Below, in pieces: positions 1-54,057 of a DNA stretch of 64,000 nt. The stretch is from a virus: positions 1 to 64,000 of IMG/VR virus record IMGVR_UViG_3300035188_000399, one strand, 5' to 3'. Under the pieces are notes generated by a model that saw only the letters and a list, made by a program, of their open reading frames with translations, did not search any database and was not told where the DNA came from. Positions within the stretch are counted from its first letter, which is position 1; the number at the start of each line of letters is the position of its first letter. A program made the translations under genes and the position numbers.

Positions 1-109
1 TAATTCCCGCTCCCGGATGCACATAATTAAAGTATTTAATACCACCAATATCTTGACGCTCTCTTACCCAGAACGAATTTAATTTATTTATTGCTTTAAG
101 TTTTTTCAT
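1..109 (-). CDS. Hypothetical protein, N-terminal part only
   Basis: An ATG at 109 opens a frame that runs off the left edge after 36 codons. The product begins MKKLKAINKLNSFWVRERQD and is basic. An AGAGGAAA ribosome binding site lies just upstream, and a hairpin separates it from the preceding gene. No family recognised. The supported part is only the start and reading frame. Confidence 0.6.
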   Translation of the reverse strand, partial: MKKLKAINKLNSFWVRERQDIGGIKYFNYVHPGAGI

Positions 110-200
110 TGTAAATTTCCTCTTGGATTAATTAAACTGTTTCGGCATTATTGCCATCATCAGTACAAGTACAGCACTTGTAGACAGTCTGAGCAGTTTA

Positions 201-218
201 AAGACCTACTCAGGTCTT
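201..218 (-). terminator. Short hairpin, possible bidirectional terminator
   Basis: AAGACCT-loop-AGGTCTT makes a 7 bp stem with a 4-base loop directly after the stop codon of the gene at 222-521. The U run is poor on the minus strand and better on the plus strand, so termination strength is uncertain. Confidence 0.45.
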
Positions 219-221
219 TTA

Positions 222-521
222 TTAGGACGCCTCCAGCCGCGCCATGAACGCGTCAAGGTTTCCATAGAAATGGAAATTATTAGTAGAAAATACAAATAAT
301 CCTTCATTTGTAGTTAAATCATATCCATTTGTTTCTTTAAACAAATAAGATGACTCTTCTCTATCAGAAGTAGTAATGACTCCAAAACGAGTTCCTTCTG
401 GTGGCACTACTACTAAAATGTTAGCGCTTCCTCTTCTGCCTTCAAACACAGCACCTGTCGAAGAAGAGTAATCAACTAGGTTTAATTTTACTTCTAATCC
501 TGCAATAAATATGCAAATCAT
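222..521 (-). CDS. Hypothetical protein (99 aa)
   Basis: A 99-residue protein with no recognised family. It starts MICIFIAGLEVKLN and has no convincing membrane segment. The ATG has an AGAGGAAAA ribosome binding site, and 49 bases upstream lies one copy of the TGCGG-N7-GGTATCTTATATGA element, so it probably has its own promoter. It is isolated between two hairpins. Function unknown. Confidence 0.7.
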   Translation of the reverse strand: MICIFIAGLEVKLNLVDYSSSTGAVFEGRRGSANILVVVPPEGTRFGVITTSDREESSYLFKETNGYDLTTNEGLFVFSTNNFHFYGNLDAFMARLEAS

Positions 522-569
522 TTTATTTTCCTCTTGGAATGTTAATTAATTGAGGTACCTTATTGTACT

Positions 570-598
570 TCATATAAGATACCCCTTTTTCCGCAAAT
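570..598 (-). promoter_or_regulatory. Conserved promoter-like element A, copy 1
   Basis: The minus strand reads TGCGG, seven variable bases, then GGTATCTTATATGA. Two other copies (1321-1349 and 54029-54057) keep the same sequence and spacing. The element lies just downstream of the terminator at 602-625 and 49 bases before the ATG at 521, a promoter position. The two halves are too close for ordinary sigma70 -35/-10 boxes, so a phage RNA polymerase or another factor is possible (inference). Confidence 0.6.
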
Positions 599-601
599 AA
601 A

Positions 602-625
602 AGGGATGCTCCGAAGAACATCCCT
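602..625 (-). terminator. Rho-independent terminator
   Basis: On the minus strand AGGGATG-TTCTTCGGAG-CATCCCT is followed by TTTTA. It begins a few bases after the stop codon at 630 and should end the transcription unit 1284-630. Confidence 0.8.
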
Positions 626-629
626 GTTG

Positions 630-932
630 TTAAAGTACCAGTAATCCTGACTGGAATAAATGCCCTTCACATAGGACACTGAGCTTATAATCTTCCTCGT
701 TGATTAAATCGAGGATTAAAGCAAGGCTTTCAATCTTATCGCCACTCCACTCAACGCTGTTCCAACTGTATTGGACGTTCGCACCAATCTTAATTCGTGC
801 ATCTGCTCCTTCTAGCAGTGAAGAGTAGTTAAAATACTCTTCAGCGTCAACGGTGTCAAAATCCCAAGGGATTTGCGAATGTATAGAACTATCTAAAGTT
901 CTATTGATAATAAACATTACAGTCGAGTGCAT
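630..932 (-). CDS. Hypothetical protein (100 aa)
   Basis: A 100-residue acidic protein with no recognised family. Its start overlaps the end of the upstream gene by 16 bases, and GGAGAAGAAA precedes the ATG. It is the last gene of a three-gene unit (1284-630) with element A in front and a strong hairpin behind. Function unknown. Confidence 0.7.
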   Translation of the reverse strand: MHSTVMFIINRTLDSSIHSQIPWDFDTVDAEEYFNYSSLLEGADARIKIGANVQYSWNSVEWSGDKIESLALILDLINEEDYKLSVLCEGHLFQSGLLVL

Positions 933-1135
933 TTTCTTCTCCGAATAGCGATTGAGGCACGTCTAACGTGTCTTGGTTTACCTTTCATTTCTTTTTCAAA
1001 TTCTTCATCTGACAGATTTTTAATGTATAGTTCTGAATCAGCATAGCCTGACTTATTAATCATAAGAGAAGAAATGCGATAGTCTAACCAGCCAAGATAA
1101 GCTTGCTTGTTACCAGCTCCGCCTCTAATACTCAT
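917..1135 (-). CDS. Hypothetical small basic protein (72 aa)
   Basis: A 72-residue protein with an arginine-rich C-terminus (RHVRRASIAIRRRKCTRL), which suggests nucleic-acid binding but does not prove it. Its ATG overlaps the upstream stop as ATGA, indicating coupled translation. Middle gene of the 1284-630 unit. No family recognised. Confidence 0.65.
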   Translation of the reverse strand: MSIRGGAGNKQAYLGWLDYRISSLMINKSGYADSELYIKNLSDEEFEKEMKGKPRHVRRASIAIRRRKCTRL

Positions 1136-1284
1136 TTCTTAGGCTCCTTTTTCAAAGCTGCTTCTAGAAAGAAGCTAAACGGAATTGCAGGTTTCTCACT
1201 GCTGATCCTATTTCTATTCCATCCATTCTTATAATGTTTATGGGCATTAAGATCAGTTTCTGCTGCTTTGATTACCTTTCTCAT
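1132..1284 (-). CDS. Hypothetical small basic protein (50 aa)
   Basis: Fifty residues starting MRKVIKAAETDLNAHKHYKN and ending in a lysine-rich tail. It has an AAGGAG ribosome binding site 6 bases before the ATG and an ATGA overlap with the next gene. Element A lies 37 bases upstream, so this is the first gene of a three-gene unit. Function unknown. Confidence 0.65.
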   Translation of the reverse strand: MRKVIKAAETDLNAHKHYKNGWNRNRISSEKPAIPFSFFLEAALKKEPKK

Positions 1285-1320
1285 AGTGTTCTCCTTAGTT
1301 ATAATAATCGATATTGATTA

Positions 1321-1349
1321 TCATATAAGATACCATTATTTCCGCATAT
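1321..1349 (-). promoter_or_regulatory. Conserved promoter-like element A, copy 2
   Basis: The minus strand carries TGCGG-N7-GGTATCTTATATGA, identical in its fixed positions to the copies at 570-598 and 54029-54057. It lies 37 bases before the start codon at 1284. Confidence 0.6.
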
Positions 1350-1400
1350 TCCCTTTAAGATTTTGATACTAAAGAATAACAGATAATGGACTACGTCCTA

Positions 1401-1445
1401 GGGGTTAATTGAGGGGGGGAACGTCTGAAGGGTTAATTCAACGGG
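1401..1445 (-). promoter_or_regulatory. Dyad element B, degenerate pair
   Basis: Two variants of the dyad found elsewhere as CCCGTTAAATTAACCC. One at 1430-1445 reads CCCGTTGAATTAACCC; a more degenerate one is at 1401-1416. They sit between the GC-rich stretch and the unit starting at 1284, the same cluster-border position as the other copies. Confidence 0.5.
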
Positions 1446-1647
1446 TTCAGTGTCAAAATTTTCGCACGCACTGGCTCAGAGCCGCCCGTTCTGGCACCAG
1501 AAACTAGGGTACACGGCACGCGGCTGGCACGCTGATCCCTCAGTGATGCCCCGACACGCACGCGCCACACACGCCCAGATTTCACGCCCACCAAAATTCG
1601 TGCAGAAACTGCCCCTCTTGTCGCGGAAAATTTTGGCATCACCATCA
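1446..1647. other. GC-rich intergenic island
   Basis: About 200 bases with clearly higher G+C than the rest of the window lie between the GNAT-like stop codon and dyad element B. Frames across it exist on both strands, but they look like shadows: arginine-, valine- and alanine-rich, without a good ribosome binding site, and unlike the phage's codon use. A second GC-rich stretch lies next to dyad B at 53390-53600. It may be captured DNA or a structured untranslated region. Confidence 0.5.
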
Positions 1648-2103
1648 TCAGGGATGCTCGTCCAAATGCCATGTAGCTACGTATCCGATCCTACTCCAGC
1701 CCTGTTTTTCGAGAATCCGTGTGAAAACGTTTTTCTCGTCTACATTGCTTCCGTTTGAAATAATACAGTTAATCTCTCTACGCTTTGCTTCTTCAATTAA
1801 TTCTTCATGAAGGAGTATTACAGCTTTGACAGCTTGAGTACCTGTTAAATCAGAAGCAAAGAAACATTGTTGTAGTACAGGATCTTTAATACACTCATTC
1901 TTTCTTATGTCAGCCAACAGCCATGCTCTTATTACACCATCTACTTCAGCAACTCTGAGGAAACCTCTAACACCAATTATTTGACGCATTGATCTTACAG
2001 ATGTATCATAATCTGCTCTTATTAATTCTGGTTGTGAAAACTTCATATAGATTTTAACACAATCATGTAATTCATCTTTATTTTTAATTTTTCGTATAAT
2101 CAT
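1648..2103 (-). CDS. GNAT-like acetyltransferase-like protein
   Basis: About 151 residues from the ATG at 2103. The order of a small helix, RGFLRVAEVDGVIRAWLLAD strand pair, long helix and EKQGWSRIGYVATWHL C-terminus resembles GNAT folds found as single genes in phages. The acetyl-CoA loop is not clear, so activity is uncertain. The start is a problem: an upstream in-frame ATG at 2136 overlaps a terminator hairpin and has AGGAG only one base away, while the ATG at 2103 follows the hairpin's U tract with no ribosome binding site. Confidence 0.6.
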   Translation of the reverse strand: MIIRKIKNKDELHDCVKIYMKFSQPELIRADYDTSVRSMRQIIGVRGFLRVAEVDGVIRAWLLADIRKNECIKDPVLQQCFFASDLTGTQAVKAVILLHEELIEEAKRREINCIISNGSNVDEKNVFTRILEKQGWSRIGYVATWHLDEHP

Positions 2104-27523: not shown

Positions 27524-27660
27524 TTAGGGTTAATTTAACGGGTTCTATTAATCCCTAAGATATACATCTATTAGTATATTTATTAAGAATATATGATAGA
27601 CTGATTAACTAAGGGATTATAATATAGGGGGACCGACTTAGGGTTAATTTAACGGGGTCT
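27524..27660 (-). repeat. Dyad-flanked intergenic element B, copy 1
   Basis: About 135 bases between the Tad2-like stop and the scaffold gene. Copies of the dyad CCCGTTAAATTAACCC at 27527-27542 and 27641-27656 flank an AT-rich core. The core has inverted arms (AATCCCTAAG and CTAAGGGATT) and, on the minus strand, CCCCCTATATTATAATCCC. The same arrangement recurs at 48447-48624 with much shared core sequence. Its place before scaffold and capsid genes suggests a late promoter region; a replication origin is an alternative. Confidence 0.65.
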
Positions 27661-28015: not shown

Positions 28016-31000
28016 TTATCCTATTCCATAGAAACCCCAATCATCATCAAACTTAGTTGGATCGGGAATTTCACTCATAACATCTTTTTTAGTTAAGATG
28101 TCTTTTTCTGTTAATATTTTACCACCGACAACTGATTTGCCTGCTACAGGTATTAATCCTTTGTCAATAGCTTCGTTTAAATATTGATCATATAATTCTT
28201 TAGGGAAACCTCTTGCTAACATTTCATCTAATGTAACTTTAACAGGATTTTTATCTAATACATTAGCGTAAAGTTTTCTTATACCCTTCCGGGCCTCCAA
28301 CATATCGGCTGCATTGGCGAAAAACGCATCGTGAATGGTGCTTGTGGCAATCTTATTGTCTCGTCCCCATAGGTGGAAATTTTTGACCAATGTTGCGTCA
28401 TTGGAGTGGTTTCCGTTGACTGCATAAGCTGTGCGTGCTTTTGTGGCATCTGCGATATCATTTATTTTCCCATCAGCATTTACTACTTGTTCCCACCAAG
28501 TAGCTTCGGTCTTTTGTTGTATTTGGACTAAGTTATTAATCCAATTACCATCTTTATCTTTATATGCTAATCGTTCTTCAAAAGATTGTGTGAAATTTTG
28601 TTCGATAATCTTACCATCAAAATTTACCCATGGGACATTAGTCCATGACTTAGGAAGCTTATTAGCATAAAATATTTCAAAACCTTTAGATATATTTAAT
28701 TTTTCAATAGGTTCTAATCTAAATACCTTAAATCCAGTACGTCTGTCATTAGGTGCTTTTACACCATATATTAAATCAGCTAATGTTCCATCTGGTTTCC
28801 AGCCATCAAATCGTTTTAAAAATTTCTCTGATAGCGCTTCACCAGCTTTTAGTCCTAGTATTTCACTTATCCTGTCAGGGAGGACATAACCTTTTTTACG
28901 AACACCTAAAACTGCGGTAGTTCCTATTGATTTCCAATCTAAAGCAGCTTGAGAAGGTTTGGCATTAGTCAGGTAATCTTCAGCCAATCTGCCGAAAAAT
29001 TTTGTAAAGTCTTTTAAAATAGGTACTTGTTCACTAAGATGCTCAGACATTAATTTAGCAATAGCTTGAAAATCTCTTGGCGTAACAACCATATCATAGG
29101 TATGTGTCATCTTTTCCACTAAGTCTTTAGTGGCAGGATCAAGGAAATATAACTGTTCCATAATCTCGTCACCAGGATCTAGGCCTTTATTAAATATGTC
29201 TTTTACATTTTCTCTTAATTGTTTTAGTTGCGCAGTAGTTTCAGGATCAAACTTTTCATATCTTGCTGCACGTGCTGATATTTCATTTAATACTTTGTCT
29301 CTATCACTAGCTCTAACAACTAAAGTAGGTGCAAATGTTTCAGGCTTTTTAGCTACATTAACTAATTCTTCTTGTAACGCTGAATTAAGATCTGAAATTG
29401 TCTTTTCTGTATCTGTAGTAGCAGGTGTAAATCCTGCATCTTCCAAAGCCATTTCAGCTGCTTGTTTATTTGTCTTTAGATTATAAACACTAGCTTCATC
29501 TTTAATGATAGTATCTTCACCAAATCTATTTGACTTTAAAATACGTTTTTGAGCTTCTAATAATTTGAAAGCTCTAGAATCAGAAGGGACATTTAAAGAT
29601 TTTAAATGCTCATCCAAAAACTCACCGAGTTCTTCTACAACTTGCATAGCAATATATTTCTTAGTATCGCCTTTTGAGCGCTGTTCAAATTTAGCTTTAT
29701 TTTCAGCTATTTTCTCTTTAGAAAATTTCTCGCCAGTCTTATGATCGAATGTTTTATATGTAGCACGTTCTTTTCGTTCATCTGTTAGTTCAATATCAGC
29801 GGTATGTAACCATTTAAATGTATCTTTTAACTCTGCAGGAGATAACTTACCTTTCATAGCTTTAGCAATTAAATCACCTTGAGCTTTAATAATTTCGTCT
29901 GGTGTACCTACATAATTAGGGTCTGTTTTGTTTTCAACACCTAATACACGTAATAAGCCAGCTGAGTCTTGTCTTTCAGATAACAAACCTTCTGTCACTT
30001 TTACTTCAGGCGGTTTTGCAGGTTTCTTTTCCAATACTTTTGCAAGCTTACCTTCAACATTAAGAATTCCAGTTCTTTCTCCAGCTCCATAAAACGTAAC
30101 CATATTTTGAGCTTTTGCAGCTTTACGTAAATCCTTTTCATTGAGACCTAATCTTTCATTTAATACTTTAAATCGTGGATCATTAAATGTTGCTGCAGCA
30201 ATTTCATCATATAGACGTCTTTTCTGATTTGTAGGAACAACATTAGATAGCGATGCAAGCTGTTTATTCTTAGTAGTTAAAGCAATAATCTGTGCACCAG
30301 ATGACGAAGCATCTTGTTCAAGAGCAAGAGCAGTTTTATAGGAATTCATTCTATTAGTTGAAGCTAAATTTTTCAAATCTGACTCAGACAAAGTGTAATG
30401 CAAAGGACTACTTCCAACATCTGATTTAGTTTTTATTTCAAATGTTTTAGATGTTTTAGCTGCATATTTCAATCTATCTACGCCTCTCGAATGCCCAACT
30501 ACTAATGCTGCTTTTTGATCAGGTTCAGTAAAATCTGCACCAATGTCAAATTCAACTCGATAACCGTTATTTTCTAACTTAGCTTTTATATCGTTATAAA
30601 ACTTATCAGCTAACGGATTACCTTTTATAAACTTAGGATTACCTTTTACGATAACAGCTAGTGGTTTTTCATTTAGATAATTATCTATCTTAGCCGCTTC
30701 CATAGCAAACCTAAAGAACTTACCTAACTCTTCGCCTTCAACTAATTGCACCATATCAGACTCTAATATAGCGCGAATATCTCCTGGTTTACCACGTAAC
30801 ATTTTATTACCAATATCTACCATCTCTGGCCACAATTTATCAGCAATCTTTTGTCTGCCTGTAAATGACAATGAATTATATCTGCCTTCAAATACATCAT
30901 TCAGACCGCCCATGAACGCGCCTATTTGATCTCTAAAGTTTCTATAACCATCTTCACCAAGAACTTTTTCAACTTCAGTATTTAAGAAAGGTCTGAATGA

Positions 31001-33652
31001 TTCTCCTGATTGCGGACTAATAAGGCCACGATCATAGATCCTAGCCCGATGGTCAACAAAAGCATGATTACTGAAAGAGTAGCCATTATTTCTAAGCCAA
31101 TCCATAGACTTGAAACGCTCATATGCATCACCTCTGGAAGAAATATAGTGTTTATATTCGTTTAAATCATTATACTTTTTAGCATTACCTTTATCATCTT
31201 CAAAGTATAATAACTTTTGTGTAAAGTCATAAAAGTCATTGTCAATTTTGTATTTAGATTGAGATGCCCAATTTAATGCATCAGTTAAATTCTTGTCAAC
31301 AAATTCTTCAGGAAAGTCAGAAAAACTATTAGTAGATGTAATAGGTATACGTGTATCTTCTAAACCTAGGAGACCTCTGTCAATAAAATAAGTTTTATAG
31401 CCCTCGCGAAAAACCAGTTTATTCTTCTTTGTTGTTACGCCAACACGTAGGCCGACCTCCACTTTCCGTGTGAGCTGTGAATATTCTTGTATTCGAGGAT
31501 CTACAACTCTTATGTTGTATGACAGAGTGTCATAATAAGGGCCAAATAAAGAACCGCTAAGTCTACTTTTCATTCTTCGTTTTTGAACACCATATGTTTC
31601 AACTTCAAAGAATTTATTTACATTTTTAGCTTCTAAAAGCTTCATACCTGTTTCATACCATTTACGTCTTGTACCATTAAGATTCGCAAGATTATATAAA
31701 TCTCTTCCAAGGGCAATAGCAAATTGGTCTCTGTCTGGCATATCAGCCATACTTAATCTATGAGCAAATTTAAGATAAAATTGTTGTAATGCAGATTCAG
31801 TTAAGCGATCTTTACCTGTAGGTAATTTTCTTAAAGTAATAGGAATTTTATAGTCAAATACATTACGCAACTCTCTCGCTATTTTAGGTGCTGTATTGTC
31901 TTCCCAATAATTCTTAGCAGTAATATTGTCTATAAAATTATCATGTAAATCTTGCAATTGAGTAGGGCCTAGCACTGGATCAATATAATTATTCTGTTTT
32001 AGTTTCTTCAATACGTTGGTATCACTACGTATCTGAGTCTCAATAGCATCAGAAACATTCATAACATCAAATTTAATTTGACCTTGTACTACAGCCTTAA
32101 AGTTATTCCATTGTTCACCATTATTTCTAAATCTTGTGAACAATATACGAAGATTATCTACCACAACAGCTCGTTCATTGACACTCATCTTTTCACTAAG
32201 TGTATCATTAAATGACTTAATGAACTCTTTATCTTTTGGCTTTAAAACATCACTTTGTTCTGCAAGTCTTAAGTTATTGTTGAGTACGGATGGATTAGGT
32301 TGATATAATCTTGTATCTTCGTAGCGCCCTGTAACGGGATTAAAGACGAGTTGATCCTCCGTTGGAAGACTGTTAAGCACTCTTGTTTTGGCAGCTTTCT
32401 TTGTATGTATAAGTGCGCCTCGATAGTTTGTAAGGGACAATGTACCATCTAATTCTCCTGATTGTAAGAGATAATAATCTTTTAATGTTTGGATTAATTT
32501 AGGATCACCTATAAGATCATCTGGTGTCATAATAGGTAATTGCATCGCATCTAATTTAGCTTTAGCATTTGCAAACTTTTGTGTATCATTAGGCAATGTG
32601 TAAGTAGGGTCAGTCATGCGTCTCAATTCTTTAATACCAATAGTGTTACCTTCTGGATTAGTGAATTGATCGACAGTAAGTTGTCCGCTTTGAAACATAT
32701 TAACTTTTTTATAATCACCTAAATGTCTTAATTGCACATCTTGTGGTTGTCTTAGCAGCCAGTCATTATAACTTTCTCTCAATGGCGTATTACCATCATA
32801 AAAAGCTTTTTGTTTGTCCGTAAGTCCTGCTAAGTTTCGCTTACGTACTTGTGCTACGCTTTCTAAATCTGCAATGTCTTTCCATGATTTAAACACTGGA
32901 ACAGTAGTAGACCTGCAATGCCAATGTGCTGGCGGGAGATGTGTTGTATCATTTATCGGATATATTTCACCATCTCTATGTGCACATAGCGGGGTTGTTC
33001 GTGCGTCAAGGACAGCAACGTATTGCCATCCTTGTAACGCTTTTTCATTTGCCTTATAAATCGCATGATCAGCTTGTGAGGATACGGATGTGATAGCCGT
33101 TATTACCAGACCTCTTGACTGCATGCGAGTTATATTATGTACATTTCCTGTACGTACTTGTAGAGCTATTTCATCTACGCTTTTTCCGTCAGCTATACCT
33201 TTACGTATAACTGCTTCTAATCTAATTTTTTCATTCTTAGCAATGCCTGACCAGCCTTGCTCCATTGTTCCATTTTCACTTAATGGATTTTTCAGAACGA
33301 TTTCTTCAGCTATTCTATTCTTAGGTCTTTCTGTACGCCATATCTTACCCATTGCTACTTCAACTTTTTGATAAGCATATGAGAGCTGGTCTGATACAAG
33401 AGACGATAAGTCTTTTTGAACCGAATTATTAATAGACTTATATGTCTTTCTTAATTCTTGGTCAACAGCTTCTCTAAATCTATCAAAGCCTCGTCCTGAT
33501 AATTCTGCATCTTTAATTAATTTGTCTAGTCTAACAACATGACCATCAATAACTAAATCAACTTTACCAGAGACTCTTCTCTCATATAAACGGATCATCG
33601 CTGCGCGATCTAGTGTTTTATCGTATATTTGTGTATTACTATTGACGATCAT
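28016..33652 (-). CDS. MuF-like head protein fused to single-subunit RNA polymerase
   Basis: 1878 residues directly after the portal gene. Residues about 150-260 form a Phage Mu F-like domain, with LDARTTPLCAHRDGEIYP and PPAHWHCRSTTVPV. The rest has single-subunit RNA polymerase motifs in order: motif T-like DHRARIYDRGLISPQSGES near 867, motif A LEQDASSSGAQ with Asp1114, motif B R1176-x3-K1180-x7-Y1188-G, and motif C STIHDAFF with Asp1775, preceded by NGNHSNDATLVKNF. The A-to-C distance is ~660 residues against ~275 in T7 polymerase, so large insertions are present. By analogy with the N4 virion polymerase it may be packaged and injected; this is inferred. Confidence 0.85.
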   Translation of the reverse strand: MIVNSNTQIYDKTLDRAAMIRLYERRVSGKVDLVIDGHVVRLDKLIKDAELSGRGFDRFREAVDQELRKTYKSINNSVQKDLSSLVSDQLSYAYQKVEVAMGKIWRTERPKNRIAEEIVLKNPLSENGTMEQGWSGIAKNEKIRLEAVIRKGIADGKSVDEIALQVRTGNVHNITRMQSRGLVITAITSVSSQADHAIYKANEKALQGWQYVAVLDARTTPLCAHRDGEIYPINDTTHLPPAHWHCRSTTVPVFKSWKDIADLESVAQVRKRNLAGLTDKQKAFYDGNTPLRESYNDWLLRQPQDVQLRHLGDYKKVNMFQSGQLTVDQFTNPEGNTIGIKELRRMTDPTYTLPNDTQKFANAKAKLDAMQLPIMTPDDLIGDPKLIQTLKDYYLLQSGELDGTLSLTNYRGALIHTKKAAKTRVLNSLPTEDQLVFNPVTGRYEDTRLYQPNPSVLNNNLRLAEQSDVLKPKDKEFIKSFNDTLSEKMSVNERAVVVDNLRILFTRFRNNGEQWNNFKAVVQGQIKFDVMNVSDAIETQIRSDTNVLKKLKQNNYIDPVLGPTQLQDLHDNFIDNITAKNYWEDNTAPKIARELRNVFDYKIPITLRKLPTGKDRLTESALQQFYLKFAHRLSMADMPDRDQFAIALGRDLYNLANLNGTRRKWYETGMKLLEAKNVNKFFEVETYGVQKRRMKSRLSGSLFGPYYDTLSYNIRVVDPRIQEYSQLTRKVEVGLRVGVTTKKNKLVFREGYKTYFIDRGLLGLEDTRIPITSTNSFSDFPEEFVDKNLTDALNWASQSKYKIDNDFYDFTQKLLYFEDDKGNAKKYNDLNEYKHYISSRGDAYERFKSMDWLRNNGYSFSNHAFVDHRARIYDRGLISPQSGESFRPFLNTEVEKVLGEDGYRNFRDQIGAFMGGLNDVFEGRYNSLSFTGRQKIADKLWPEMVDIGNKMLRGKPGDIRAILESDMVQLVEGEELGKFFRFAMEAAKIDNYLNEKPLAVIVKGNPKFIKGNPLADKFYNDIKAKLENNGYRVEFDIGADFTEPDQKAALVVGHSRGVDRLKYAAKTSKTFEIKTKSDVGSSPLHYTLSESDLKNLASTNRMNSYKTALALEQDASSSGAQIIALTTKNKQLASLSNVVPTNQKRRLYDEIAAATFNDPRFKVLNERLGLNEKDLRKAAKAQNMVTFYGAGERTGILNVEGKLAKVLEKKPAKPPEVKVTEGLLSERQDSAGLLRVLGVENKTDPNYVGTPDEIIKAQGDLIAKAMKGKLSPAELKDTFKWLHTADIELTDERKERATYKTFDHKTGEKFSKEKIAENKAKFEQRSKGDTKKYIAMQVVEELGEFLDEHLKSLNVPSDSRAFKLLEAQKRILKSNRFGEDTIIKDEASVYNLKTNKQAAEMALEDAGFTPATTDTEKTISDLNSALQEELVNVAKKPETFAPTLVVRASDRDKVLNEISARAARYEKFDPETTAQLKQLRENVKDIFNKGLDPGDEIMEQLYFLDPATKDLVEKMTHTYDMVVTPRDFQAIAKLMSEHLSEQVPILKDFTKFFGRLAEDYLTNAKPSQAALDWKSIGTTAVLGVRKKGYVLPDRISEILGLKAGEALSEKFLKRFDGWKPDGTLADLIYGVKAPNDRRTGFKVFRLEPIEKLNISKGFEIFYANKLPKSWTNVPWVNFDGKIIEQNFTQSFEERLAYKDKDGNWINNLVQIQQKTEATWWEQVVNADGKINDIADATKARTAYAVNGNHSNDATLVKNFHLWGRDNKIATSTIHDAFFANAADMLEARKGIRKLYANVLDKNPVKVTLDEMLARGFPKELYDQYLNEAIDKGLIPVAGKSVVGGKILTEKDILTKKDVMSEIPDPTKFDDDWGFYGIG

Positions 33653-38056: not shown

Positions 38057-38379
38057 TATTCACCTGCCCATATTCTATAAGGGGTTGTCGGTGCTGTAAT
38101 TAACGGCAATGCAGCCTCTTGTTCAGCTGTCAAATCAGCTTTAATATTAACATGCCATCCGTCAATGGGTAGCATTTCAGGATATTGCAGGTTATCTTCA
38201 GTACGTAATACTTGACCTGTTGGTTTATAAATTAAGCCAATTACATCTGTAGTAATTTTTGTAATAAATTGGGTATCACTTTCTGTACCCCAAACTGGTT
38301 CAACAGTTGCTAAGCCTAATTCTAAGAACTTAGCTGTGAACTCAGCTTCATTTGTGAATTTTAAAAAATAGTTTTTCAT
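38056..38379 (-). CDS. Tail fibre assembly-like protein (107 aa)
   Basis: 107 residues directly downstream of the large fibre gene, with ATGA-type overlap. The segment YPEMLPIDGWHVNIKADLTA and the C-terminal TPYRIWAGE are like short proteins found next to phage fibres. A chaperone or capping role is inferred from position. Confidence 0.5.
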   Translation of the reverse strand: MKNYFLKFTNEAEFTAKFLELGLATVEPVWGTESDTQFITKITTDVIGLIYKPTGQVLRTEDNLQYPEMLPIDGWHVNIKADLTAEQEAALPLITAPTTPYRIWAGE

Positions 38380-40499
38380 GTTGTTGTGAGTCCTTGAAGT
38401 TCAGTGTTGCTTAGACGTTTGGGGTAATAAGCTATTTTGGAAATTGTTCTAACCCCTACTATATTATTATATGTGCCCATGCCTATTTTTAGATTTGTAA
38501 AGGTTGGAATTGTTGCTGAGGTATCTGTATAGATTATATCATTTCCATTTGAGTAAGCAATATCATTGGCTTTATAACCTATAGCTTGCCTTGTAGTTAA
38601 AGACTCTGTATACTGTTTATAAGCATCTGCCTGAACAATGTTAGCATTTTCAAAATAAAGACCAGTACTCTTATAAGGATTTACAAAAAGACATAATCTC
38701 GTGCCAAAAATGGTATTATCTAATTGCGCCAACTGCCCAAAGCCATTAGCGCCTAATGTTACTGGTATTTTTGCAGTAAGTGCTAAAGTACCCTCATCTT
38801 GTCTATACCAACTAGAAAAATTAGTCCCAGTAATAACAGCATTATCCGCTGGACGAGTTGCTTGAGCTGAACTAGAGATATCTGCAGTACGAATACCTTG
38901 GCTAGAAGAAATTGACGGAATATAGCTTGTAGCTGTATTGCCTGCTTCTAGTTGTGCGCCCCAGATGTAGATGCCGGATGTGCCGTCGCCTGTATAAGAT
39001 GCCCCATTTTTTGCAGCAATAATCCATATTGTTCCAACCAAAGCAGCCGAATCAGTAGTAGCAGATATTCTGAACCATCCATTTCCAACCGGTGTAATAC
39101 TCGTTGCTGTTGTTGAGCCGTTGCCTATTACCGAAGTAGCTGTTGCCAAATTAAAGTCTGCTAAAATTGGGTTTTTTGGAGTTACTGCTTCATACGAACT
39201 TAGTCTTATAGTGGTATGCTCAGCGGCTTTCACATATAGCGACAATGTTATTGCGGCAGATGGTGGTGTGTAGATATTATAAATACTGTGAGCTGCTGTA
39301 GTAGCTGATTCAACCAATTTGTCAGCAGTTAAAGTCCCATCTGGCGCAGTTGCTGCATTTGCTGTTATCGTTGCATTACTTTTAACCCAAATCGCATTAT
39401 CAAACTGTTCGCTATAAGTCAGCAAATTAGTAGCCGCAGGTTCAAGTAACAACTTAGGTGATAACGCTAAATTCAATGGATTATAGTTATATCTAGCTAC
39501 ATTAGTTGCAGCAGATTGAATTAAACCATTCGAGCCAATGAATGTACCAGTTGATGCCCGTGAGGTAAAGCTATCGGCGGAAGGGATATAGCTTGTCGCA
39601 AATGCGCCTTGTTCTAGTTGTGCGCCCCACATGTAAAAGCCCGAAGTGCCATTTCCAATATAATTAGCATTTGTACTAGAGCCAGTGCATGGGAGTACAA
39701 GGAATCCTCTAAAGTTATTCCCTGAAGAACCTGTAGTCGGTGTAATATAGCATCTATACCACCCATTTCCAACAGGAATTATACCAGAATTATCAGCTGT
39801 TGCACTACCATTGCGAAATATAACAGTGCCGTTTGACAAGTCAACATAAAGGCTTGCACCTCCACCATCAAATGAATCTCCTCCTACTGTTAAGCAAACT
39901 ACTGTAGTTTCACCTGCCTTGAGGTAAACCGACATTGCGTACCTGGTAGAAAGACTTAAAGCTATTGTCTTACCTGTATAATGGTTTTGCGCTACAGAAT
40001 CTTTTGATTCAACAATTTTACATGCAGTCAATAATCCATCTGGAGCAATTGCAGCGTTAGGTAATAATGCTACATTATAGGAAAGCCAGTAATTACTGGC
40101 AGCGCCATATGTTTCTGTATATTGTAATAAATTAGTGCGTTGTTCTTCAATCAGCAACCCTAGCGATTCACCTGTAATTGGATTATGATCAAAACGAGCT
40201 TCATTACTTGTGGCACTCTTAACCAACCCATTAGCATCTGTGTAAGTTCCAATACCTCCACGCGTAAATGTAATACGTGAATCTAAAGTTTTACTCTTAG
40301 CGAAATCTAATAACAGACTAGGCCTGATAGTTGCTCTGCCTGATCTAGCTAATGCTGAATTCTTAATATCACCTATTGTAACAGTACCGAGTGTATCAAT
40401 TTCTGTATTACCCCTAAAGTAATCAGCGTCTTCATATGCCATTGTACCTAAGTCGGCATTCGTGGGGGTTTGGTTTGGTTTTGTTCCTATTAATCCCAT
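38376..40499 (-). CDS. Tail fibre / receptor-binding protein, paralogue 1
   Basis: 707 residues. After an N-terminal tag there are two copies of a ~250-residue unit that starts with a version of LLIEEQRTNLL or LLLEPAATNLL, then a YSEQFDNAIW-type strand, APDGTLTADK, and GNGWFRISAT / GNGWYRCYIT strands. It ends with TSYIPS. These look like beta-sandwich (LamG/jelly-roll-like) carbohydrate-binding domains. A final domain ends YYPKRLSNTELQGLT. It has clear similarity along its length to the adjacent 699-residue fibre. Confidence 0.75.
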   Translation of the reverse strand: MGLIGTKPNQTPTNADLGTMAYEDADYFRGNTEIDTLGTVTIGDIKNSALARSGRATIRPSLLLDFAKSKTLDSRITFTRGGIGTYTDANGLVKSATSNEARFDHNPITGESLGLLIEEQRTNLLQYTETYGAASNYWLSYNVALLPNAAIAPDGLLTACKIVESKDSVAQNHYTGKTIALSLSTRYAMSVYLKAGETTVVCLTVGGDSFDGGGASLYVDLSNGTVIFRNGSATADNSGIIPVGNGWYRCYITPTTGSSGNNFRGFLVLPCTGSSTNANYIGNGTSGFYMWGAQLEQGAFATSYIPSADSFTSRASTGTFIGSNGLIQSAATNVARYNYNPLNLALSPKLLLEPAATNLLTYSEQFDNAIWVKSNATITANAATAPDGTLTADKLVESATTAAHSIYNIYTPPSAAITLSLYVKAAEHTTIRLSSYEAVTPKNPILADFNLATATSVIGNGSTTATSITPVGNGWFRISATTDSAALVGTIWIIAAKNGASYTGDGTSGIYIWGAQLEAGNTATSYIPSISSSQGIRTADISSSAQATRPADNAVITGTNFSSWYRQDEGTLALTAKIPVTLGANGFGQLAQLDNTIFGTRLCLFVNPYKSTGLYFENANIVQADAYKQYTESLTTRQAIGYKANDIAYSNGNDIIYTDTSATIPTFTNLKIGMGTYNNIVGVRTISKIAYYPKRLSNTELQGLTTT

Positions 40500-42599
40500 T
40501 TAGCCTCCTGTAAGTGATTGTAGTTCTGCATTTGACAGACGTTTAGGATAATATGCTAATTTGAGTATGTGTAAGTTTTGAGTAGGCCCAATTAACATTC
40601 TACTCATACCTTGTCCAACTGCAGCAGACGTATCAGTTTCAGTTGTGCTACCAGAAACTGAAAATGCAATGTCATTAGTTGCGTATGCAAGTGCGCATGA
40701 TATTACAGTTTGTGATGTAACAGCAGTTCCATTGAAATCCCATTGAGAAACACTGTTATCAAATCCGTACGAATCAATAGTTGCGCTGCCACTACCGCTC
40801 ACATACCTTAATGAAATAAATGAGCCTGCACCGCCTGCACCCCTATCTACCCATGCCATAGTCGGAACCGATACTGCAGTAGTAGTTGACATTAATCTTG
40901 AAGTTGCATGCAATGTGCCTTCATCTTGTCTGTACCATTTTAAATCTGTCATCACAGCGCCATCAACCGCTCGCGTATATTGACCCGATGAACTTGCATC
41001 AGCACTACGAGTAACTTGGCTAGAGGTTGTTGGGATATAGCTTGTAGCTGTAGTTCCTACTTCTAGTTGTGCGCCCCATGCATAATAATATTCGCCTATT
41101 ACGCCACTGCCTCGGATGACACCGTTTATTCCCCATCCTCTAAATAGTATTGATGTTCGACTATTAGTTGCATCTCGCGTTATTACATAACTTATTCGGT
41201 ACCAGCCATTACCCACTGGAATAATAGAAGGTTGATTACGCCCAGTATCACCGCCAATATAAGTACCTGTACTAAGATTAAATACTAGATTATCTTCGGT
41301 ATTACCTATATAATACATATTAAATACAAATGTAGTAGCCGTGCCAGCTTTTACAAAAATGGAAGCAGTATAATCTGTTATATTTGAGGCTGGTACTGCA
41401 AGTGTGTATTGGAATAACGAAGTCCCACCGCCATCATTAGTTATCTTATCCGCAGTAGTATTACCATCTGGTGAAGTAGTATTATTTGCAGTAACCGCAA
41501 TACCAAGATTACCACCTGCATTTTCCCAAACAGCATTATCAAACTGTTCGCTATAAGTCACTAAATTAGTCGCAGCAGGCTCTAATAACAACTTAGGCGC
41601 CAATTTCAAATTCATTGGATTATAGTTATATCGCGCAGTATTAATAGCCGAAGTTTTAACTAATCCATCAGATCCAATATATGTAGCCGTAGACGCACGA
41701 GATGTGAAGGTATCATTCGAAGGGATATAACTGGTGGCAAATGCGCCTTCTTCTAGTTGTGCGCCCCAGATATATAAGCCGGATGTGCCGTCACCTGTGT
41801 ATGAAGCAGTTGTACCGTTATCTAAAAAGTATGTTAAAGCAGTTTGGACATTTAAATTACCCCTGGTGGTCGTCAGTGTGCATCTAATCCAACCATTACC
41901 TATTTCAGTTATAGTTGAGCTAGTATTAGTAAAATTTGCATTATTTGTTGATACAGCGGTAACTTGTTTCGTATCTAAATTAAAAGTAGATGCTGACACA
42001 TAAGCAACATTATCTGTAAACTGTATTTTAAACCTTCTTGTACTTCCAGTTGGAAGTTTTTTAATATATATAGACGTAGTAAATGTTTTGTTAGCTAGGC
42101 TTTGCGAGGCATAAAATAAGTATTGTAAAGAACTTGTTGATTCAATAAAACTTTCAGCAGTCAAAGTCCCATCTGGTGCGGTAGTTGAATTTGTAGTTAC
42201 TGTTGCTCCCGATTTAAGCCAAGCCGCATTGTCAAAATTCTCACTATAACTCAGCAAATTAGTACGTTGCTCTTCAATCAATAACCCTAACGACTCTTTA
42301 GTAACTGGATCATGGTCGAAACGTGGTTTACCCGCTTCAACTTTCTCAAGCAATCCATCAGCATTATACCTAGTACCGATGGACGCTCGTGTAAATGTAA
42401 TTCTCTTGTCTAATCGCTTAAGATTAGCAAAATCTAACAGCAGACTAGGTCTAATGCTACTTTTAGTATTCTCAATATTAACGTTTACATTATCGACTGC
42501 ATCTTTGAGGTTAATGAAGTTAGTGTCTAACTCTGTATTTGTTAATGTTGAATTCTTAGCATACGACCCTGTCTGACGAGTGACAATAGTAACGGCCAT
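40500..42599 (-). CDS. Tail fibre / receptor-binding protein, paralogue 2
   Basis: 699 residues, adjacent to and paralogous with the 707-residue fibre. It has the same two tandem beta-sandwich units (LLIEEQRTNLLSYSENFDNA and LLLEPAATNLVTYSEQFDNA), the GNGWYRISYV strands and the YYPKRLSNAELQSLT end. The N-terminus differs (MAVTIVTRQTGSYAKNSTLT), with a short helical NTELDTNFINLKDAVDN typical of virion-attachment ends. One fibre likely arose by duplication, perhaps widening receptor choice. Confidence 0.75.
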   Translation of the reverse strand: MAVTIVTRQTGSYAKNSTLTNTELDTNFINLKDAVDNVNVNIENTKSSIRPSLLLDFANLKRLDKRITFTRASIGTRYNADGLLEKVEAGKPRFDHDPVTKESLGLLIEEQRTNLLSYSENFDNAAWLKSGATVTTNSTTAPDGTLTAESFIESTSSLQYLFYASQSLANKTFTTSIYIKKLPTGSTRRFKIQFTDNVAYVSASTFNLDTKQVTAVSTNNANFTNTSSTITEIGNGWIRCTLTTTRGNLNVQTALTYFLDNGTTASYTGDGTSGLYIWGAQLEEGAFATSYIPSNDTFTSRASTATYIGSDGLVKTSAINTARYNYNPMNLKLAPKLLLEPAATNLVTYSEQFDNAVWENAGGNLGIAVTANNTTSPDGNTTADKITNDGGGTSLFQYTLAVPASNITDYTASIFVKAGTATTFVFNMYYIGNTEDNLVFNLSTGTYIGGDTGRNQPSIIPVGNGWYRISYVITRDATNSRTSILFRGWGINGVIRGSGVIGEYYYAWGAQLEVGTTATSYIPTTSSQVTRSADASSSGQYTRAVDGAVMTDLKWYRQDEGTLHATSRLMSTTTAVSVPTMAWVDRGAGGAGSFISLRYVSGSGSATIDSYGFDNSVSQWDFNGTAVTSQTVISCALAYATNDIAFSVSGSTTETDTSAAVGQGMSRMLIGPTQNLHILKLAYYPKRLSNAELQSLTGG

Positions 42600-45348: not shown

Positions 45349-46133
45349 TTAAAAGTTGAAACCACGAGAAACCCGTTTCCCGCCCGTTTGTATTGGATAG
45401 AGGTATTCTGTGGCATATCTAATACCATCAGAAAAATGCTCTATATTCTCCGACTTATCAATAGTCGCTATATCTAAGTTGCGGTCTGTCCATTTTGTTC
45501 TTTCAAGAGATAAAATAGTACCGGAACATCTAGGATGTACATACAGGTCTATTTTACCTGAAGCTGTTAATAGTTTACGATTTACTGCGGCTACACTATC
45601 GATAATAGGTGGTGCAGCCCTGTGTGCTCTACATATAATGCCATATGTCTCTAGTATACTAAAGTCAGTACGGCCTACTGGAGCAGAAGTCTTTCTAGCA
45701 CGACCAGAAGGATCTGGATATGCATATATCTTATGGCCTTTATATTTTTCTTTAATAGCAATAGCCAGTGATTCTGTATCAGGATGCCCTTGGAACTCAT
45801 CAATAAATTGCATTTGATGCCCTCTAAGTGTGAAGACACTAGAACACTGACGCATGACGTTAAAGTCAATACATATATGAACATCTTCACCTTCCATAAG
45901 GTCTTCTAATGTAGCATCAACATGTTTCTTACGATCAAAACAGTAGAATACACTATTACCTGATTCAGCAAATTGTGCTAAGTATTCTGATGCCCATGTT
46001 ACTGGGTCAATCTTATCTTTAATCTTTTCTATTTCTTGTTGATCTAAGAATGGCGATTGTAAATAATCATATTGATAAAATCCCCAATCAGAGTCTGATT
46101 CATGATATGTAGATAGTGTATGAAAGAAATTAT
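45349..46133 (-). CDS. terL: Large terminase, exon 2 (nuclease domain)
   Basis: Second exon, 785 bases. Joined to exon 1 it gives a 441-residue protein with the junction reading STPKG-YNFFHTLSTYHESD, the usual terminase motif. This exon begins with the T of a TAT codon split by the intron. The nuclease part has ICIDFNVMRQC (first acidic residue), YPDPSGRARKTS and HFSDGIRYATEYL (last acidic residue) as in RNase H-like terminase nucleases. An ATG at 45897 makes an open frame but is internal to the exon and not a gene start. Confidence 0.9.
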
Positions 46134-47115
46134 CTTATTTGTTAACTAAAGGTCGTTAAGCTTTAGTAGTGGTTTGGCGAGTATTAGTTAATTAATAATT
46201 TTTCCAAGTTTTCCCATTACGTATTGAGTTTATGGTGCCTTTATTAACACCATAAATTTCTGCTATTTCAGGATCTCTTTTCCCTTCAGCAAACATTTTA
46301 CGTATACTTGGTATATCTTCCGCTGAAAGTTTAGCCATATGTTTAGCAATAAATTTGCCATACGCTACAACTACATCAGCTCTGTTTTCAGGTGTCCACC
46401 CTGTAATATGTGACCACCGATGGCCTTTGTTTATTTTACTTATAAGCTGTTGATTAACACCAAAAACTTCTGCAATTTCAGGACCAGAATACTTACCTGT
46501 TAATAGTAATTCTTTTATTTCTAAAACATCTTCATTGCACAATCTTGCATTAAAATGTTCTTCACCCTTTTTACTTACTTGTAATCCTGTTTCAAACGCA
46601 TGTAATTGGTTTTCAGATTGCGTACACCACTCTAAATTGTTAACACAATTATTTTGCTTATTTCCGTCAATATGATTAACTTGCGGTCTGTTATCAGTAT
46701 TTTCAATAAATACTTCAGCAACAATTCTATGAACAGGCGTTATAATACCATTAACCGATACGCGAGAGTATCTTTCAATATTATGTTTAAGAATTAAACC
46801 TGTTTTGTCATTTCTGATTTGACCGTCAGTATTTACTGAGTACATTGTATCTCTATATTGTTTCCACATTTTACTTCTCCAAAAGTGCTCGCCAAAGCAC
46901 TATCTATATATTACTATATAGAACAGACTATATCATCAACAATTTCTTGTTGTTCCGCGCTTCCCAAGGACTTCCTCAGTACGAATTTCATCATCGGTTC
47001 TCGACGGTATATTCTAGTCGTTACACTTTCAAAAGCATTCCTGCTTAAGCTTAGCTCGGTATTGTCCCATAAGGATATCCACCGAATTCACGGAATTTTA
47101 AAAGGTCATTTGTTC
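46134..47115 (-). other. Group I self-splicing intron in terL
   Basis: 982 bases. The upstream exon ends in T and the intron ends in G (position 46134), the group I rule, and splicing restores STPKGYNFF exactly in frame. Core elements: AACGACTAGA (P7, 47013-47022), GATATAGTCTG (46924-46934), GACAATACCGAGC (P4-P6 strand), and near the 3' end TTAACGACCTTTAGTTAAC, closely like the T4 td intron. TTTGGCGAG at 46889-46897 and CTCGCCAAA at 46173-46181 can pair and place the endonuclease gene in a peripheral loop, probably P9. Confidence 0.9.
46192..46869 (-). CDS. HNH homing endonuclease inside the intron
   Basis: 225 residues. Residues ~1-40 are a NUMOD4-like motif (WKQYRDTMYSVNTDGQIRN). The HNH core follows (VHRIVAEVFIENTD, then QVNHIDGNKQNNCVNNLEW). 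Two helix-turn-helix repeats end the protein: GPEIAEVFGVNQQLISKIN and DPEIAEIYGVNKGTINSIR, which should bind the target. GGAG lies seven bases before the ATG. It should cut intronless terL alleles and spread the intron. Confidence 0.9.
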   Translation of the reverse strand: MWKQYRDTMYSVNTDGQIRNDKTGLILKHNIERYSRVSVNGIITPVHRIVAEVFIENTDNRPQVNHIDGNKQNNCVNNLEWCTQSENQLHAFETGLQVSKKGEEHFNARLCNEDVLEIKELLLTGKYSGPEIAEVFGVNQQLISKINKGHRWSHITGWTPENRADVVVAYGKFIAKHMAKLSAEDIPSIRKMFAEGKRDPEIAEIYGVNKGTINSIRNGKTWKNY

Positions 47116-47656
47116 AACCTTTAGGTGTACTAATAACTAATGAACGTCCAGGACTTCTAGCACCATAACTTAATGCTCTTTTATTAGACCATCTAGTGGC
47201 AATAGTAGGCTGTATTACAGACATCCATGCATCTTCAGCACCAAGACCTTTGGTACATGATGATATCTCATCCCATACGACAAAATAAGAACCCTTGCCA
47301 CGCATACGTTCTACTGATTCATATGATAATAATCTTAATTCAACATTATTAGCGAACCAAAATCGTCCTAAGTCACGGGACATTTTGATAGCATAGTCTT
47401 CCATTCCCAAGTCGTATGCTATTAAAGGAAAATAAATATCCTTTACTTGATCATAAGTAGGAGCAATGATGTACACTGTCTTATTAGGCACCTTAGCTGC
47501 TAGCTCGAGTAATTCAAATACAGCTGTAACTGCACACACAGCAGCCATATATGATTTACCCCAACCCCTAGCGCAACACACTACGGCATATCTTAATTTC
47601 TGCTCTACAAATAAATGTTTATATATTTCAGATTGTGCTGGATGAAGGTTAATCAT
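47116..47656 (-). CDS. terL: Large terminase, exon 1 (ATPase domain)
   Basis: First exon, 541 bases (180 codons plus one base). Walker A is CCARGWGKSY (K34) and Walker B FVVWDEISS (D129, E130), followed by the PTIATR and LVISTPKG motif III region at the exon end. Without splicing the frame ends in TGA two codons past the junction, so the unspliced product would be a 180-residue ATPase half lacking the nuclease. The ATG overlaps the end of the small membrane protein upstream. Confidence 0.92.
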
Positions 47657-48446: not shown

Positions 48447-48624
48447 TAGGGTTAATTTAACGGGGTTTTATATATGTTTCTGCGCCTGTGCCCCTTGGAT
48501 AAAGTCAGGAGATCCCTTAAGGTATATATCTATTAGTTAATTATTAATGATTAATAACTAAGGACTAACAACTAAGGGATAATAAATCAGGGGGAGCGGC
48601 TTTAGGGTTAATTTAACGGGGTCT
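48447..48624 (-). repeat. Dyad-flanked intergenic element B, copy 2
   Basis: About 178 bases between the small module gene at 48628 and the terminase unit. The dyad CCCGTTAAATTAACCC occurs at 48449-48464 and 48605-48620 with an AT-rich core between. The core shares ATCCCTTAAGGTATATATCT, TAACAACTAAGGGATAATAA and the GGGGGA..GGCTTTAGGG run with copy 1 at 27524-27660. It precedes the terminase operon as copy 1 precedes the scaffold operon. Confidence 0.65.
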
Positions 48625-53366: not shown

Positions 53367-53382
53367 GGGTTAATTTAACGGG
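53367..53382 (-). promoter_or_regulatory. Dyad element B, single copy
   Basis: CCCGTTAAATTAACCC, the same sequence as at 27527, 27641, 48449 and 48605. It lies in the ~200-base leader between the GC-rich end of the gene at 53431 and the gene at 53229. Apart from this element and the ribosome binding site I see nothing else in 53230-53430. Confidence 0.6.
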
Positions 53383-53430
53383 GTTGGCACACTCGCATTA
53401 CAACCCGAACCCGTTAATGTACTGCTTTTG

Positions 53431-53784
53431 CTACGCGGTGGCCGCAGGTGGCACGAGAAATCTGTCCCATGCCTGCAGGGATGCCTCGGACGCGGTTGCT
53501 CCGTGTGCCCCCGTTTCTGCCCCAAAATTGGGCACCTGCACGCCCACTGGCACAACTGGCGGCTCATCGCCAATCTCAATCAAATCCAGCGGCATACCCA
53601 TATCCGCATCAGCTATATTGAAATAGCCTTTAATAGACCATGTTCCGCGTTCCCAATCCCCGTCTTCATCCTTGTAAAGACCAATTACACGATAAGGATC
53701 TACTGTATATTGTTCATCAATTATTGCTAATAAGAGAACTGGGAAACCACATCTAGTTTCATATACTTTATTAATATTAATCAT
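53431..53784 (-). CDS. Module protein with GC-rich C-terminal extension (117 aa)
   Basis: 117 residues. The first ~70 are one family module (ININKVYETRCGFPVLLLAI; ending MGMPLDLIEIGD). The last ~47 (VVPVGVQVPNFGAETGAHGA and so on) are Ala/Pro/Val/Gly-rich and encoded by DNA with clearly higher G+C than the surroundings, as though foreign sequence had been appended. ATGA overlap with the upstream gene. Confidence 0.65.
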   Translation of the reverse strand: MININKVYETRCGFPVLLLAIIDEQYTVDPYRVIGLYKDEDGDWERGTWSIKGYFNIADADMGMPLDLIEIGDEPPVVPVGVQVPNFGAETGAHGATASEASLQAWDRFLVPPAATA

Positions 53785-53981
53785 TTTCTTACTACCCCTT
53801 GGCTTGGATCTTGAAGTTCGACAAGCTCATAAACGTGCTTGCCATCGATTACAACACCACCAATATTAGTTTGGTGGACTAGCTTATAGCCATCGTATTT
53901 TGAACTTACGACAGCTAAACATATTATTACCGCTACCATCATTCCGATGATAAAGGATATTAAATCAAATTTTTCCTTCAT
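53781..53981 (-). CDS. Single-pass membrane protein (66 aa)
   Basis: 66 residues from the ATG at 53981, with AGAGG eight bases upstream. A transmembrane helix (LISFIIGMMVAVIICLAVVS) near the N-terminus precedes a small polar domain. Element A, copy 3, lies 48 bases upstream and should drive this gene and the next. Function unknown. Confidence 0.65.
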   Translation of the reverse strand: MKEKFDLISFIIGMMVAVIICLAVVSSKYDGYKLVHQTNIGGVVIDGKHVYELVELQDPSQGVVRK

Positions 53982-54028: not shown

Positions 54029-54057
54029 TCATATAAGATACCTAATTTGCCGCAATT
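54029..54057 (-). promoter_or_regulatory. Conserved promoter-like element A, copy 3
   Basis: TGCGG-N7-GGTATCTTATATGA on the minus strand, as at 570-598 and 1321-1349. It overlaps the end of the module gene at 54042 and lies 48 bases before the ATG at 53981. Confidence 0.6.

Follow-up and report, generated by a model that had tools for sequence, protein, structure and literature searches.

Some phages, among them N4-like, crAss-like, P23-45-like, and jumbo phages, carry RNA polymerases (RNAPs) in the virion. Thermus phage P23-45 (PMC10770324), a siphovirus, has a virion RNAP (vRNAP) fused to a structural protein and two distinct promoter motifs; the vRNAP transcribes a pre-early block that holds the gene for a second RNAP, and the authors of that work reported that P23-45 relatives without the fusion are also without the motif. 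Coliphage N4 (Schitoviridae; PMC4496689) has a vRNAP of the T7 superfamily, early promoters, and a second T7-like RNAP produced from early genes. According to a 2017 survey of polyvalent proteins, N4-type vRNAPs are found only in N4-like phages. In the open-access literature that we searched (most subscription papers lay outside the search), neither a MuF-fused T7-type polymerase nor a promoter for such an enzyme was described.

The window analysed here, i.e., the whole stretch of DNA under study, covers positions 1–64,000 of a virus record that is 77,545 bases long. Like P23-45, this phage is a siphovirus with two distinct motifs and a putative virion RNAP fused to a structural protein, which would transcribe a block of early genes holding the gene of a second RNAP. 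It differs from P23-45 in that the polymerase of the latter is a two-barrel enzyme carried on the tape measure protein, whereas the one described here is of the T7/mitochondrial type and is carried on MuF; the motifs of the two systems are unrelated. The definition of the two-barrel vRNAP class (crAss-like phages and P23-45; double-psi-barrel homologues of cellular RNAP) is not met, the fold being that of T7 RNAP. With N4, the phage shares a polymerase of the T7 superfamily, putative early promoters, and a second T7-like RNAP encoded in the early region, although packaging of the first enzyme is here only inferred. N4 promoters, however, require an extruded inverted-repeat hairpin centred near −11/−12, which is absent here; the N4 vRNAP is a protein of ~3500 aa with another architecture, as opposed to a 1546–1878-aa MuF fusion in a siphovirus; and N4 RNAPII is a heterodimer that acts with cofactors, while N4 late genes are transcribed by the host RNAP. 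By analogy, and on computational grounds only, the system may work in the manner of N4 and P23-45 while being a member of neither group.

All identified genes of the record lie on the minus strand, and the gene content is that of a siphovirus: a portal, a MuF-RNAP fusion, a scaffold, a major capsid protein, a tail fibre with an S74 peptidase, PhoH, replication genes, and a tape measure protein of 3892 aa. A crAss-like identity, first guessed from the giant proteins, was rejected; the giants are the tape measure and tail fibre proteins, and the relatives of the portal are in phages DSS3_VP1 and Kolga. Two side observations concern the structural region. Between positions 45,349 and 47,656 (minus strand), a fragment of the terminase large subunit (47,114–47,656) is followed by an HNH endonuclease ORF (46,192–46,869), an arrangement that may reflect an interruption of this gene, too. 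At positions 38,376–42,599 (minus strand), two adjacent tail proteins of ~700 aa match the same PHROGs with the matched domains reordered, and could possibly represent a duplicated tail gene.

The element under study, TGCGG-N7-GGTATCTTATATGA, has exactly three matches in the window, all on the minus (coding) strand. No further sites were found in the window at one to three mismatches, while 0.02 sites would be expected there by chance with up to three mismatches allowed. The element copies and the features around them, all on the minus strand, are as follows.

570–595: element copy A, exact match, spanning −24 to +2; predicted start G at 571
602–625: intrinsic terminator directly upstream of copy A, its T-run ending at TGCGG
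222–521: small early gene after copy A, 99 aa, without a family match
1321–1346: element copy B, exact match; predicted start G at 1322
1132–1284: small early ORF after copy B, 50 aa, read from the sequence
54,029–54,054: element copy C (distal), exact match; predicted start G at 54,030
53,781–53,981: small ORF after copy C, 66 aa, with ribosome-binding site AGAGG; start codon inferred

The sequence-only reading of this DNA had reported these three sites on the minus strand, and they proved to be exact, except that their right-hand ends had been drawn 3 bases too far. It had also placed the sites 37–49 bases before the start codons of small genes. This held as well, since the start codons used here (521, 1284, and 53,981) lie 48, 36, and 47 bases downstream of copies A, B, and C, respectively. 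For copy C, the ATG at 53,981, which is preceded by a ribosome-binding site, is the more probable start codon, because an in-frame ATG at 54,032 straddles the predicted transcript start and would, by inference, fall outside the transcript. In the whole record, there are five exact copies of the element, the additional two being at 75,716 and 76,898, again on the minus strand; the remaining 13.5 kb of the record contained no plus-strand copies and no matches to a reversed-pattern control. The motif search proposed as a check by the sequence-only reading thus returned copies on one strand only, and the outcome that would have refuted that reading, many copies inside genes and unrelated to gene starts, was not seen. 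The existence of the element and its strand and position are therefore shown by computation, and a chance repeat is ruled out by the copy counts in the window, in the record, and in a set of 15 genomes described below.

The number of copies per genome should be read with some caution. The two ends of the record carry diverged repeats (window positions 1–1968 versus record positions 75,665–77,543) that are ~85% similar, with 127 bases identical, and therefore the 1321/570 and 76,898/75,716 pairs may be one locus assembled twice. The repeats could be strain versions in the assembly or a tandem duplication of the early module; a close relative (G001) has one such pair of elements. This caveat does not harm the case, because the case rests on many genomes.

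Among 2.9 million viral contigs, the exact pattern was found in 50 stretches. A MuF-RNAP relative is encoded in 21 of 25 element-bearing records; the other four are fragments of 34–43 kb that carry the second RNAP. The fusion was present in 15/15 element-bearing records of at least 53 kb, and in all 30 element-bearing records of this size that were examined. In the opposite direction, records of at least 60 kb that encode the MuF-RNAP contained the element in 9/9 cases in a first search and in 6/6 cases in a second, all negatives being shorter fragments. The co-occurrence of element and fusion is thus shown by computation, and the element marks a family of uncultured siphoviruses. When 50,697 records of known phages were searched by similarity, the element was not found, and only partial matches at the level of chance were returned. 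A search of bacterial genomes returned a single contig, a phage-sized record in a metagenome bin, which does not reveal the host.

An alignment of 94 sites gave the consensus YGCGS-AAAA-n3-RG-TATCTTATATGA, with an information content of ~36 bits. Because this alignment was selected on the core, mismatches were also counted in a separate set of 83 sites, in which three mismatches were allowed anywhere in the element. The first box accounted for 56 mismatches over five positions, the RG pair for 23 over two positions, and the last 12 positions for 8; positions −9 to +1 (ATCTTATATG) had just two mismatches in the 83 sites. When 15 genomes oriented along their genes were scanned with a position weight matrix (cut-off 14 bits; no score above 4.5 bits in 24 random genomes), 48 sites were detected, all 48 on the coding strand and none on the opposite one.

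Two independent observations make it very likely that the element is a promoter, though all of the evidence is computational and there are no transcript data. Terminator-like hairpins were present in the 60 bases before the element at 25 of 105 sites, but at only 47 of the 1261 positions taken as controls from upstream of other genes (odds ratio 8, p = 7e−12). In addition, the onset of RNA stems of at least five pairs coincides with the G of TATATG. Of 87 distinct leaders, 15, 17, and 18 have a stem at offsets 0, 1, and 2, respectively, with ~3 expected, while at offset −1 and earlier their number in the same leaders was near expectation. The sequences of the stems vary (GATAAGC/GCTTATC, GGTACAC/GTGTACC, GAAGAG/CTCTTC, and others). 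In the window, the 5′ hairpins are GAAGTACAATAAGGTACCTC for copy A, with its onset at the G, GATAATC...GATTATT for copy B, and GAAAGAGTTTAAAGGTAAACTTT for copy C. The hairpin onset is shown by computation. Since stems of changing sequence keep one onset base, the G of TATATG is the predicted +1, which puts the start at minus-strand positions 571, 1322, and 54,030 and the element at −24 to +2; the identity of the start site is inferred from hairpin onset and has not been mapped.

Other classes of signal were considered and rejected. A σ70 promoter (TTGACA, 16–18 nt, TATAAT) has the wrong spacing, as the sequence-only reading had correctly remarked, and matches to it in the region (7 versus 6.4 expected) are at the level of chance. 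The element has no conserved internal structure and no N4-type hairpin (mean z −0.04), which rules out an N4-style hairpin promoter. An RNA family of the Rfam type is ruled out as well, since Rfam gave no match in the window or in the rest of the record. Promoters of the T7 class (T7, T3, SP6) resemble the element in being short, strong, and asymmetric, with an AT-rich −4 to −1 segment, a +1 G (predicted for the element), and a single-subunit RNAP (putative for the element). The element differs from them in that conservation reaches −24, there is a separate YGCGS box and no GGG start, and the putative polymerase is fused to a head protein. The 23-bp T7-class site (−17 to +6, GGG start) is accordingly not matched by an element that spans −24 to +2 and has a predicted start of GA.

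The start codon follows the element by 12–126 bases (median 36) at 45 of the 48 sites. In 15/15 genomes, the element lies 1.9–4.2 kb upstream of the gene for the second RNAP (RNAP2) and on the same strand, and in 14/14 further records it lies within 8 kb upstream of that gene; combined, it is found ~2–8 kb upstream of RNAP2 and on the RNAP2 strand in 29/29 records. Most genomes have one distal element 11–33 kb downstream of the early block and RNAP2 gene, as at 54,029, so not all copies belong to one early cluster. In the record studied here, the capsid and tail operons have no element at their heads. These results show that the element heads early operons, including the one that carries the second-RNAP gene; this and its occurrence in phages that encode an RNAP fused to a structural protein are as expected of an early promoter read by a virion-carried phage RNAP.

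The candidate vRNAP is encoded in the window by the following features, both on the minus strand.

28,016–33,652: MuF-fused single-subunit RNAP, 1878 aa, with Pfam Phage_Mu_F and RNA_pol matches
32,903–33,217: MuF domain of the fusion, residues 146–250

The sequence-only reading had mentioned a MuF-RNAP fusion, and the fusion is real. Its relatives are mostly ~1546 aa long. The match to PF00940 (RNA_pol) is above the cut-off, and across 59 sequences there is little or no variation in motifs A (QDASSSGAQ), B (RKxxK-N7-YG), and C (HD), the invariant catalytic residues being D616, K682, Y690, and H1046-D1047. The 1150-residue polymerase part of a relative (L117) was folded using 59 sequences, and the resulting model was confident, with a pLDDT of 82 and a pTM of 0.79; an earlier model built from 11 sequences was unusable (pLDDT 47). 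A Foldseek search with the L117 model identified T7 and human mitochondrial RNAPs with E-values of about 1e−17. Among viral models, the top match (E = 4e−62) was a 1463-residue protein, which we take to be, from its same length, the likely DSS3_VP1 fusion, followed by T7-like RNAPs, with N4-type vRNAPs lower. The RNA_pol match, motifs A, B, and C, and the palm fold together show by computation that the polymerase belongs to the T7/mitochondrial single-subunit superfamily. Given the fold and the retained catalytic motifs, the protein is predicted to be a plausible active single-subunit RNAP on a head protein, its activity being inferred.

The fusion encoded in the window also contains two extra segments, 29,327–30,022 (residues 1211–1442) and 30,359–30,670 (residues 995–1098; both minus strand), which adjoin catalytic motifs B and A, respectively, and are missing from most relatives. 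Other relatives have different insertions or intron-like breaks at nearby places. Inteins were considered for the two segments and rejected as lacking Pfam support; without a Pfam match, the segments are probably not inteins.

A second, free T7-like polymerase gene (PF00940, usually ~750 aa) is present in every tested record that holds the region. De novo comparison revealed a second repeated motif, RACCCGTTAAATTAACCCT (also written ACCCGTTAAATTAACCC), at the heads of middle and late operons. Genomes typically carry this motif four to eight times on the coding strand: downstream of RNAP2, in the region of the terminase, immediately behind the MuF-RNAP gene and before the capsid genes, and before the early block. 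The second motif is shown by computation, and RNA hairpins are moderately enriched just after it. The corresponding features are listed below; the motif copies are on the minus strand of the window.

about 71.5–74.4 kb of the record: RNAP2 gene
1430–1446, minus strand: second motif ACCCGTTGAATTAACCC, candidate RNAP2 promoter before the early block
53,367–53,383, minus strand: second motif copy
48,605–48,621, minus strand: second motif copy
48,449–48,465, minus strand: second motif copy upstream of the terminase region
27,641–27,657, minus strand: second motif copy just after the MuF-RNAP gene, before the scaffold and capsid genes
27,527–27,543, minus strand: second motif copy in the same interval, just after the MuF-RNAP gene and before the scaffold and capsid genes

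As a separate observation, an insertion that contains an HNH endonuclease ORF (L132:14080–14830, about 72.1–72.8 kb of the record, minus strand) interrupts the RNAP2 gene and is likely an intron; the gene is also split in several relatives.

The pairing of motifs with polymerases was evaluated in partial Mantel tests on 15 genomes. Divergence of the element followed that of the vRNAP (0.42, p = 0.024, with RNAP2 held constant) and not that of RNAP2 (−0.37), while the second motif followed RNAP2 (0.57, p = 0.0065) and not the vRNAP (0.07). Individual genomes are informative in both directions. Genome G018 has an outlying MuF-RNAP, an altered element, and a canonical second motif; G014 and G026 have the most divergent RNAP2s, an altered or missing second motif, and a canonical element; and in G033 and G022 the second motif is altered or missing while the element is canonical. 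The co-variation is shown by computation, but the test is modest, because the identities of the two polymerases correlate across genomes. With 15 genomes, the evidence for pairing the element with MuF-RNAP and the second motif with RNAP2 is good without being conclusive.

We consider it likely, with a probability of about 0.8, that the element is the early promoter of a MuF-fused virion RNAP in a two-polymerase cascade, in the absence of any transcript, binding, or virion data. In this view, the MuF-RNAP fusion would enter the cell with phage DNA; packaging and injection are inferred from its fusion to MuF, a head protein. The enzyme would recognise the asymmetric double-stranded sequence YGCGS-AAAA-n3-RG-TATCTTATAT and start RNA at the next G, direct recognition being likewise an inference. 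It would make early mRNAs, often with a 5′ stem-loop that may protect them, and these would include the RNAP2 message. RNAP2 would then use RACCCGTTAAATTAACCCT to transcribe middle and late genes for replication, packaging, and structural proteins. The guess that the element may serve as the early promoter of the MuF-fused polymerase, made in the sequence-only reading, is thus supported by all evidence that could be computed, while transcription by the fusion enzyme is not shown.

One described relative of the fusion provides an argument against this reading. Roseophage DSS3_VP1 (Naomviridae) resembles the phage studied here in two ways: its portal gene adjoins a gene for a MuF-RNAP fusion, which is only 32% identical to ours, and it encodes a T7-like RNAP separately. 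The element was not found in this phage, whose operons are headed by a different repeated motif, GATAGGKTRCGTTAAAGARGGGG, and whose DNA contains uracil. EBPR siphovirus 1 encodes a MuF-RNAP ~58% identical to ours, with the RNAP half annotated as hypothetical. No convincing copy of the element turned up when EBPR siphovirus 1, DSS3_VP1, and Kolga were searched. Because the EBPR siphovirus 1 record is partial, without an annotated second RNAP, it may lack the early region and does not allow a verdict on the element. Apart from this, the MuF-RNAP gene in that record is followed closely by GACCGTTATTTTAACCC (L133:31206–31240), a variant of the second motif, in a position that matches the one found here. 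In DSS3_VP1 (L134/L135), GATAGGKTRCGTTAAAGARGGGG has eight intergenic copies (2238, 2329, 6576, 7404, 19,198, 19,322, 29,392, and 46,547) and is likely, by inference, the promoter for that phage's own second RNAP.

Three alternatives to the MuF-RNAP promoter were considered. The element could be the promoter of RNAP2, which would amplify its own operon after first transcripts had been made by the host polymerase. In favour of this, all genomes checked have the element upstream of RNAP2, which resembles T7 RNAP more closely than the fusion does; however, a different motif heads the middle and late operons and tracks RNAP2, which the element does not, and G014, G026, G033, and G022, with an altered second motif and a canonical element, as well as G018 with the reverse pattern, argue against this possibility, making it unlikely. 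The element could also be read by the host RNAP, directed by an alternative σ factor or by a specificity factor that the phage encodes. Phages often rely on the host RNAP at their early promoters, and the AT-rich core resembles a −10 element. Yet ~36 bits and a near-invariant −9 to +1 core would be unusual among σ promoters, there is no −35/−10 spacing, σ70-like matches are at chance, and the element is tightly tied to phages with MuF-RNAP; we regard this explanation, too, as improbable, though a role of the host polymerase cannot be excluded at every element site. That the element is an operator, or else an RNA element transcribed as part of early leaders, as its conservation in the 5′ regions of small genes and the RNA hairpins after it might suggest, is very unlikely, because it is not palindromic and lacks conserved inner structure, terminators end right before it at many sites, the hairpin onset is at one fixed base, and the start codon follows at variable distances (12–126 bases).

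For the preferred reading, a MuF-RNAP early promoter, the work specifies an enzyme together with its likely promoter, resolved to single bases, and a predicted start site. A second pairing of enzyme and promoter is specified as well. Two purified proteins and short pieces of duplex DNA would suffice to test both pairs, and orthogonal pairs of this kind have practical uses, too. A bolder reading, for and against which the odds appear to us evenly balanced, is that the element represents a new kind of promoter: a duplex signal of 26 bp would contain two recognition boxes, YGCGS near −22 and the almost invariant ATCTTATATG reaching to +1, and would be read by an injected, MuF-fused T7-like RNAP. 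Together with RNAP2 and its promoter, it would then constitute a self-contained transcription programme, without need for the host polymerase, that is widespread in uncultured siphoviruses.
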